43,736 nt of DNA, taken from Geobacteraceae bacterium. GTDB taxonomy: Bacteria > Desulfobacterota > Desulfuromonadia > Geobacterales > Geobacteraceae. The stretch covers positions 1-43,736 of the forward strand of contig JAMXLF010000028.1 in NCBI GenBank assembly GCA_024281055.1. Direction: 5' to 3'. Below, piece after piece: positions 8,791 through 10,301 of the stretch (positions within the stretch are counted from its first letter, which is position 1; every line of letters starts with the position of its first letter). The translations under genes and the position numbers were made by a program. The notes under the pieces were generated by a model. The model saw only the letters and a list, made by a program, of their open reading frames with translations, was not told the DNA's origin and made no database searches.

Positions 8791-8860
8791 GTTCAAGGTT
8801 CAATGTTCAACGTTCAAGGTTGTTCTTTTAACTTTGAACCCTGAACCTTGAACTTTGAAC
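8791..8860. repeat. TTCAAGG-type heptamer hairpin repeat at the nuoA 3' end
   Basis: Left arm 8791-8825 holds GTTCAAG, GTTCAAT, GTTCAAC and GTTCAAG units; right arm 8836-8860 holds the complement (TTGAACC, TTGAACT). The nuoA reading frame runs through the right arm and stops within the left arm, so the element overlaps the gene. Same unit family as 6307-6364. Confidence 0.85.
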
Positions 8861-9266
8861 TTTTTGATGGTCCCCATTCCAAGCCCCCCTTGAGCCACAG
8901 CCATGCAAGACCGAGGAGGAGTACCACGATAAAGAAAGTGATGTGGATCAATCCGGTCAATCCGAGCTCGTCCCAGGCCACGGCCCAGGTGAAGATGAAG
9001 ACCGCCTCCACGTCGAAGACGATGAAGAAGATGGCGATGAGGTAGAAGGGGACCGGGTAGGCGAGTCGGGCGCTCCCGGTGGGGATCACCCCCGACTCAT
9101 AGGGGAGCTCCTTGTCGCGGGAGGTGGAGCGGGCGCCGAGCCACCAGGCGGCGAGGAGCAGGACCCCGACCAGGAGGACCGCTGCCACCGTATACAGTAC
9201 CAGGGGAAATATCTCGCTCGCGAGCGCCGCGTTTGCGGTCATTGTCTCTGCCGTTTCCTGAGGCAT
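8814..9266 (-). CDS. nuoA: NADH-quinone oxidoreductase subunit A with repeat-encoded tail
   Basis: Small membrane subunit of complex I. Three hydrophobic helices are visible, at about residues 19-45, 72-96 and 107-126. The family motif YESGV and the segment FYLIAIFFIVFDVEAVF are present. Length is 150 residues where about 120-130 is usual. The last 15 or so residues (KFKVQGSKLKEQP and before) are read from the heptamer repeat, so the natural stop has been lost and the frame ends inside the repeat. The ATG at 9266 has a GAAAGAG site; an ATG at 9242 is a possible alternative. First gene of the nuo series, preceded by a G-rich palindrome rather than an evident promoter, so probably read from the ferredoxin promoter upstream. 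Confidence 0.93.
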   Translation of the reverse strand: MPQETAETMTANAALASEIFPLVLYTVAAVLLVGVLLLAAWWLGARSTSRDKELPYESGVIPTGSARLAYPVPFYLIAIFFIVFDVEAVFIFTWAVAWDELGLTGLIHITFFIVVLLLGLAWLWLKGGLEWGPSKSSKFKVQGSKLKEQP

Positions 9267-9369: not shown

Positions 9370-9822
9370 TCACTCGCTATGCCTCTTCCACCAAGCGAGG
9401 AGCGCATTCCTGTCCATGGCGCCGCTCACGCTGTCCACCACCTGGCCCTTGCGCAGGATCATAACCGTCGGGATCCCCCTGATTCCGAACCTGCTCGCCA
9501 ACTGGCGATTCTCCTCGGTGTTGATCTGCACCACCACCCCCGAGCCCGCCAGTTCCTCCGCCACTTGTTGCACCACCGGTGCAAGGCTTCGGCAGTGCGG
9601 TCACCAGGGGGCCCAGAACTCGGCCAGCACCTGCCCCGGGTAATGAACCACGAACTCGTCGAAGCTCTGGTCCGTGAGGGCTACCGGTATACGGTAGAGG
9701 GGAGGGAGCGCGGCGTGACAGCTGCCGCATTTCCCAGACCGTCCCTCGCTCTCCGCAGGGACCTGGTTAGCCGCGCCGCAGGCGGGGCAGCGGATGATGT
9801 AACTGTCGTGTGATGGCGCCAT
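9370..9822 (-). CDS. TrxC-type thioredoxin, probable selenoprotein (UGA = Sec74)
   Basis: A single 150-residue frame interrupted by one TGA (9603-9601) exactly where the first redox cysteine belongs: FWAPW-(TGA)-PHCR. Reading TGA as selenocysteine gives a full-length thioredoxin. It has an N-terminal zinc ribbon (Cys12, 15, 32, 35 as in thioredoxin 2), then UPHC at 74-77, and the cis-proline loop GIRGIPTVM near 118. A hairpin fitting a bacterial SECIS follows the TGA. The downstream part is intact to the normal C-terminus, which argues against decay. The ATG at 9822 is chosen as the TrxC-like start (MAPSHDSYIIRCPAC). It sits between bcp and nuoA on the same strand, 14 nt after bcp, and could reduce that peroxiredoxin. 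Alternative: a nonsense mutation or base error. Confidence 0.85.
9568..9603 (-). promoter_or_regulatory. SECIS-like hairpin after the thioredoxin UGA
   Basis: On the minus strand the TGA at 9603-9601 is followed after 16 nt by the hairpin TTGCACC-GGT-GGTGCAA (9584-9568): seven perfect base pairs and a GGT loop. The loop starts 23 nt after the TGA and has G in its first two positions. This agrees with the known bacterial SECIS rules (loop about 16-37 nt downstream, G near the loop start; E. coli fdhF also has a GGU there). An outer GCC/GGC pairing is possible. Confidence 0.75.
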
Positions 9823-9836
9823 GGCGGGTTCTTTCT

Positions 9837-10301
9837 CTACCGCTTTTTCAGGAATTCCAGCACGTCGGCCGGGTGCGTCTCCGCCTTGGCCACCTTCGGC
9901 CACTGCTTCACCACCGTACCGTCCGGCCCGATCACCACCGTGGAGCGGATGACCCCGGTGGTCTTCTTCCCATACATAATCTTCTCGCCGTAGGCGCCAT
10001 ACGCCGACATCACCGCTGTGTCCGGGTCGGAGAGGAGGACGAAGGGGAGGTGAAAGTCGCCGATGAATTTGTCATGGGACTTGAGGCTGTCCTTGCTCAC
10101 CCCGAGGACTACGGCGTTCAGTCCCTCCAGGGTGCCGTGGAGGTCCCGGAAGCCGCACGCCTCCCTGGTGCATCCTGGGGTATTGTCCCGGGGGTAGAAA
10201 TAGAGGACGACGGTCTTCCCGGCATAGTCCGCCAGCCGGTGGGTCTTCCCGTCGCTTCCCGCCAGCTCGAAATCGGGGGCTTTCCTTCCTTCAAGAGACA
10301 T
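9837..10301 (-). CDS. bcp: thioredoxin-dependent peroxiredoxin, Bcp/PrxQ type
   Basis: Reduces hydrogen peroxide and organic peroxides using thiols from thioredoxin. 154 residues from the ATG at 10301 (MSLEGRKAPDFEL); the longer frame upstream overlaps the ferredoxin gene. The peroxidatic cysteine is in YFYPRDNTPGCTREA, the family hallmark. The second cysteine of the usual CX4C pair is replaced: TREAC follows, with CTREAC giving Cys-x4-Cys, so the resolving cysteine is present. Nested tightly between ferredoxin (8 nt) and the Sec-type thioredoxin (14 nt), which is its natural reductant. The peroxiredoxin here uses Cys, not Sec. Confidence 0.93.
   Translation of the reverse strand: MSLEGRKAPDFELAGSDGKTHRLADYAGKTVVLYFYPRDNTPGCTREACGFRDLHGTLEGLNAVVLGVSKDSLKSHDKFIGDFHLPFVLLSDPDTAVMSAYGAYGEKIMYGKKTTGVIRSTVVIGPDGTVVKQWPKVAKAETHPADVLEFLKKR

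Follow-up and report, generated by a model that had tools for sequence, protein, structure and literature searches.

Selenium-containing thioredoxins of Geobacter have been in print since 2006. A survey of that year lists, in the part accessible to us, a selenoprotein thioredoxin in G. metallireducens, G. sulfurreducens and G. uraniumreducens (PMC1794560), and the thioredoxin GSU3446 of Geobacter sulfurreducens, with a TGA codon, appears among the known selenoprotein clusters in Table 1 of a 2007 paper, likewise seen in part (PMC1914089). Thioredoxin (Trx, PF00085, motif UxxC) is also a listed prokaryotic selenoprotein family in the accessible parts of two further sources (PMC13188914, PMC9312934), the latter of which cites Kim et al. 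2015 for it. The gene analyzed here lies in a contig stretch of 43,736 nucleotides from a Geobacteraceae bacterium, referred to below as the window. It shares with GSU3446, as far as the table entry of the latter goes, its product (a thioredoxin), the in-frame TGA and the bacterial group, and the two are very probably orthologues. It agrees with the listed Trx family in having UxxC within a PF00085 domain, and it has in addition a Pro-His dipeptide and an N-terminal zinc ribbon, whereas the listed family is known to us from these sources by UxxC alone. In the literature searched, which lay mostly outside the subscription journals, no description was found of a near-fixed U-Pro-His-C motif, of the breadth of its conservation or of reversions accompanied by SECIS decay. 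What was a single listed selenoprotein thus becomes a broad family with matched selenocysteine (Sec) and cysteine versions.

The thioredoxin gene starts with the ATG at 9822, and its terminal codon (9372-9370, minus strand) is likewise a TGA. The original prediction had placed the gene correctly at 9370-9822 and left out the strand, which is the minus strand (Table 1). Reading the internal TGA as selenocysteine gives FWAPW-U74-PHC77-R. The TGA thus falls, as had been claimed, on the first active-site residue of a TrxC-type protein, with the thioredoxin frame open on both sides and its second half intact. The further claim, of a gene cut in two by standard annotation, could be followed in the mechanically called open reading frames only, among which 9601..9903 ends at the TGA. 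From the comparisons described below we consider it very likely that the TGA at 9603-9601 directs the insertion of selenocysteine. A scan of the window gave 77 long frames with TGA read through, and in the 19 whose TGA surroundings were inspected by eye no further selenoprotein-like redox motif was seen.

Table 1. Features of the selenothioredoxin locus (positions in the window)
Feature	Position	Strand	Description or basis
Selenocysteine thioredoxin gene (zinc-ribbon Trx2/TrxC-like), very likely	9370..9822	(-)	150 residues, U74-P75-H76-C77
In-frame TGA very likely read as selenocysteine, residue 74	9601..9603	(-)	TGA/Cys codon comparison across homologues
bSECIS-type hairpin	9568..9584	(-)	7-bp stem, GGU loop, loop 23 nt past UGA, -8.1 kcal/mol
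Bcp-type peroxiredoxin gene, active-site Cys	9837..10301	(-)	named from sequence NTPGCTREACGFRD alone
nuoA-like gene, first of downstream complex I cluster	8814..9266	(-)	named from sequence and context

Homologues were compared for their codon at position 74. A copy with an internal TGA was found in 38 of the 48 genomes of the family (40 copies); in the order, 84 of 141 genomes had a match (E up to 1e-25), and four further genomes came from a search of the class (277 genomes, E up to 1e-28). The order and class searches together made up the classified set of 93 copies listed for 88 genomes. Codon 74 was TGA in 80 copies (75 genomes), TGC in eight and TGT in five, and neither TAA, TAG nor any other codon outside TGA and the Cys codons occurred in the 93, so that the proposed check of orthologues at this position returned TGA or Cys throughout. 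Without the outgroup (G171, a TGT copy with C-G-P-C), the 92 family members comprise 80 TGA and 12 TGC/TGT genes. The TGA copies span six family groups, and Cys is kept at position 77 together with matching downstream sequence. Both marks of a bacterial selenoprotein gene, an in-frame TGA flanked by conserved coding sequence and homologues with Cys at the same position, were thus found. The dipeptide is Pro-His in 91 of the 93 homologues, in Sec and Cys forms alike, and Thr-His (THC) in one; the Pro-His noted at the window locus is therefore near-fixed in the family and no local oddity.

The counts were made on aligned codons because the search listing was misleading for three genomes (G085, G086 and G089), given there as TGA and found to have Cys in the alignment. 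A search of a named collection, with a peptide pattern written for Cys at position 74 and thereby biased towards Cys forms, returned one TGA record (L022) and seven Cys records (L023-L029). These are the same records as G037, G088, G078, G092, G089, G077, G091 and G090, add no evidence, and are named as Geobacteraceae, Geobacter sp. and Desulfuromonadaceae MAGs. A second subgroup, with FWAPT-U-PHCH (FWSPT in G006), occurs as an extra copy in G006, G007, G054 and G055 and is the sole kind listed in several other genomes.

The hairpin TTGCACC-GGT-GGTGCAA begins 16 nt 3' of the TGA (9584-9568), as predicted. The published limits for a bacterial SECIS (bSECIS) element, in the accessible part of the source, are a loop of 3-9 nt with G in its first two positions and located 16-37 nt after the UGA, a stem of 4-16 bp and an energy of -7.5 kcal/mol or lower (PMC13188914). 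The values of the window hairpin (Table 1), with a 3-nt loop and an energy that is that of stem plus loop, lie within all of them; the limits were applied by our own script instead of bSECISearch. Folding of the 58 nt around the TGA gave -20.2 kcal/mol (z -0.41), and 65 of 200 shuffled sequences folded as well, so that one sequence alone proves little and the case is made by comparison across genomes.

In that comparison 79 of the 80 TGA genes passed the bSECIS limits in any register, against two of the 12 Cys family members (G049 and G118); the outgroup failed them. The exceptional TGA gene, G006a, has a 6-bp stem and a five-base loop at -7.4 kcal/mol, missing the limit by 0.1 kcal/mol. In a fixed register the contiguous pairs beside the loop numbered eight in 73 TGA genes, seven in five and six in one, with no stem in G006a, so that apart from this copy the spacing between UGA and stem is constant. 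Their loops were GGC (39), GGT (36), GTC (4) and GGG (1). When synonymous codons were redrawn in the 80 genes, the mean stem was 1.03 bp and the maximum 1.78 in 2000 runs, compared with 7.81 observed. The stem codons were correspondingly biased, with GCA for Ala in 78/80 (0.23 elsewhere), CCG for Pro in 80/80 (0.55) and GTG for Val in 80/80 (0.49). Among columns dominated by a single residue (more than 60%), the five located at positions 5-12 past the Sec codon had a mean codon bias of 1.12 bits versus 0.18 in 69 others (p 0.0012). Little pair covariation was seen in the stem, since its bases are constrained by protein and RNA alike, and the case for the hairpin is made by codon choice and by the difference from the Cys genes; the 80 TGA genes are related and do not represent 80 independent events. 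The hairpin proposed for checking is thus retained in step with the TGA. The presence of TGC or TGT in 12 family members might suggest that the window TGA is a sequencing or assembly error for one of these codons. However, the same TGA recurs in 80 copies from 75 genomes, and the hairpin accompanies it and is mostly missing with Cys; such an error is hardly credible and was rejected on the comparative codon and hairpin counts.

The selenocysteine machinery was sought in the window genome, and all of selA, selB, selC and selD, whose absence would have spoken against the original prediction, were found: SelA above its cut-off, two SelB above theirs, SelD, and two tRNA-Sec genes above the gathering score. 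The SelD gene (C98:45253-46173, L169) itself carries one in-frame TGA, and judging from this codon SelD is probably a selenoprotein too. The two SelB (C38:9762-11651 and C89:817-2706; L146, L147) are 74% identical, and the two tRNA-Sec genes differ at nine of 94 bases. This doubling was set aside as a novelty, since the SelB on contig C38 resembles that of another genus (87% identical to SelB of G036) and the contamination listed for the assembly is 3.42%. The SelB and the tRNA-Sec on C38 may come from contamination, in which case one of each would still remain. The G+C content of C38 is 0.578, compared with 0.63 in the window and 0.548 to 0.628 in other stretches of the genome, which is a weak argument for contamination. 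Two SelB were likewise observed in G006 and G027 among the 47 genomes searched.

Within the order, 72 genomes carry a TGA copy, and five of them (G004, G040, G081, G100 and G104) gave no SelA match with E limited to 1e-40. A tRNA-Sec was found in G040 and G100; at E up to 1e-9 none was found in G004, G081 or G104, whose assemblies are 78%, 96% and 92% complete. These three assemblies still carry a TGA copy and, by translation table 11, the frame ends at the TGA, as it would if the codon were a real stop in a pseudogene or between two separate genes. This explanation is very improbable in view of the retention of TGA across six family groups together with Cys77 and the sequence downstream, and beyond the terminal codons extra stops were listed only in G004; the pseudogene reading was rejected on the comparative codon counts. 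The machinery, the hairpin that tracks the TGA and the TGA-or-Cys homologues support selenocysteine in this thioredoxin, and the call, made from raw sequence alone, in our judgement proved right. The G004 copy (C76:5125-5550, L102) has three in-frame stops including the Sec TGA, in a genome with a SelB match, so that it would be a broken or decaying gene or one misread from poor sequence. SelA was present in ten of the 12 genomes with a Cys thioredoxin, and the other two (G088 and G091) had neither SelA nor tRNA-Sec matches.

To relate the Sec and Cys forms, position 74 was masked and a tree of 90 copies was built. This tree, based on 143 columns, leaves 36 of its 83 inner branches open and has the Cys genes nested among the Sec genes at three points: G118, G049 and a set of ten. 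With the outgroup, four changes were needed, and none of 500 shuffles came as low. Because of this nesting, the change is read as running from Sec to Cys, with about three reversions. The 2006 survey, in the part accessible to us, reports Sec-to-Cys events for no more than four families, with SECIS remnants kept in some cases, and its thioredoxin row, which we saw without its column headings, has dashes after its count (PMC1794560). SECIS remnants as such are therefore already known, and those described here may be new for this selenothioredoxin. Cys genes that keep the hairpin (G049 and G118) and Cys genes that have lost it seem to capture SECIS decay at different stages, and UPHC/CPHC pairs would offer a single scaffold in which to measure what selenium contributes. 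G118, with its Cys thioredoxin, has three tRNA-Sec matches above the gathering score (C43:6528-9112, C30:106276-106368).

Family scans of the protein, run with C substituted for U, gave 95.9 bits with PF00085 (thioredoxin; Pfam gathering score 23.5) and 29.8 bits with PF21352 (Thioredoxin 2 zinc ribbon; 27.1). The TrxC equivalog NF008229 scored 120.4 bits, slightly below its curated cut-off of 125, and the thioredoxin equivalog TIGR01068 scored 93.4 bits, below its cut-off of 96.8. An AlphaFold model (C for U, 10-row alignment) had a mean pLDDT of 89.7 and a thioredoxin-like secondary structure in which residue 74 just precedes helix 75-91. The PDB entry 7d6l, 'Thioredoxin 2', matched residues 5-143 (E 1.6e-26); the protein disulfide-isomerase-type chains 8eky and 3idv scored higher but cover only residues 47-141 and 48-137. 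The protein therefore resembles Thioredoxin 2 (TrxC; NF008229, PDB 7d6l) in combining a zinc ribbon with a thioredoxin domain, and differs from it in falling just under the TrxC cut-off and in having U-P-H-C in place of the C-G-P-C of the TrxC active site. No signal peptide was apparent by eye, and the zinc-ribbon thioredoxin is probably cytoplasmic.

In UxxC thioredoxins, thiol-disulfide exchange proceeds by selenolate attack. We infer a corresponding chemistry for the window protein. The SECIS hairpin just 3' of the UGA very likely recruits SelB carrying Sec-tRNA-Sec, with insertion of Sec at position 74 in place of termination. The selenolate of U74 would then attack disulfides (or sulfenic acids) of the substrate, C77 would resolve the mixed selenosulfide, and thioredoxin reductase would presumably restore the selenothioredoxin. 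The recoding signature, the machinery and the conservation of both protein halves and of the hairpin are apparent in the genomes compared. The location, the reductase and the partner are proposals.

The active-site dipeptide of DsbA is Pro-His. This resemblance, with Pro-His in 91 of the 92 family members and Thr-His in the other, might point to a selenothioredoxin that serves mainly in more oxidising or isomerase-like exchange and not in general thioredoxin reduction, and a stop-free thioredoxin match on contig C39 (39% identical) may supply the general reductant. On the other hand, both the zinc ribbon and the neighbouring Bcp gene point to a reductant of the cytoplasm, no signal peptide is apparent by eye, and we regard the oxidising or isomerase-like role as unlikely. 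It is similarly doubtful that the U-Pro-His-C selenothioredoxins of six family groups of one class form a distinct family, more oxidising than ordinary thioredoxin and a dedicated partner of a peroxiredoxin or other fixed client, in which several lineages went from Sec to Cys. If this were true, the family with its reversions would be a natural series testing what selenium buys.

The Bcp-type peroxiredoxin gene, whose start was placed at the ATG of MSLEG, lies 14 nt upstream of the thioredoxin gene and is likely in the same operon. Its product would be the most likely partner in the window lineage and a possible electron acceptor of the selenothioredoxin, a guess from gene position that we hold tentatively and at somewhat less than even chance. 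The partnership is not general, as 85 of 93 loci had no Bcp match, many of them with only ~1.5 kb of flank; the eight loci with a match upstream had it centred ~470-520 nt (four) or ~910-950 nt (four) away. A nuoA-like match lay downstream in 16 of the 93 loci, and both counts are lower bounds given the short flanks. GSU3446, too, presumably adjoins nuo genes. Clustering of the flanking frames gave no neighbour common to all 93 loci (largest cluster, 34 genomes or copies), and the clusters were full of antisense frames, so that the neighbour analysis was restricted to directed matches for nuoA and Bcp. Between gltB and the Bcp gene in the window, a short ferredoxin-like frame ending in ...DACPVNCIHWE was observed by eye from 10310 upwards on the minus strand.
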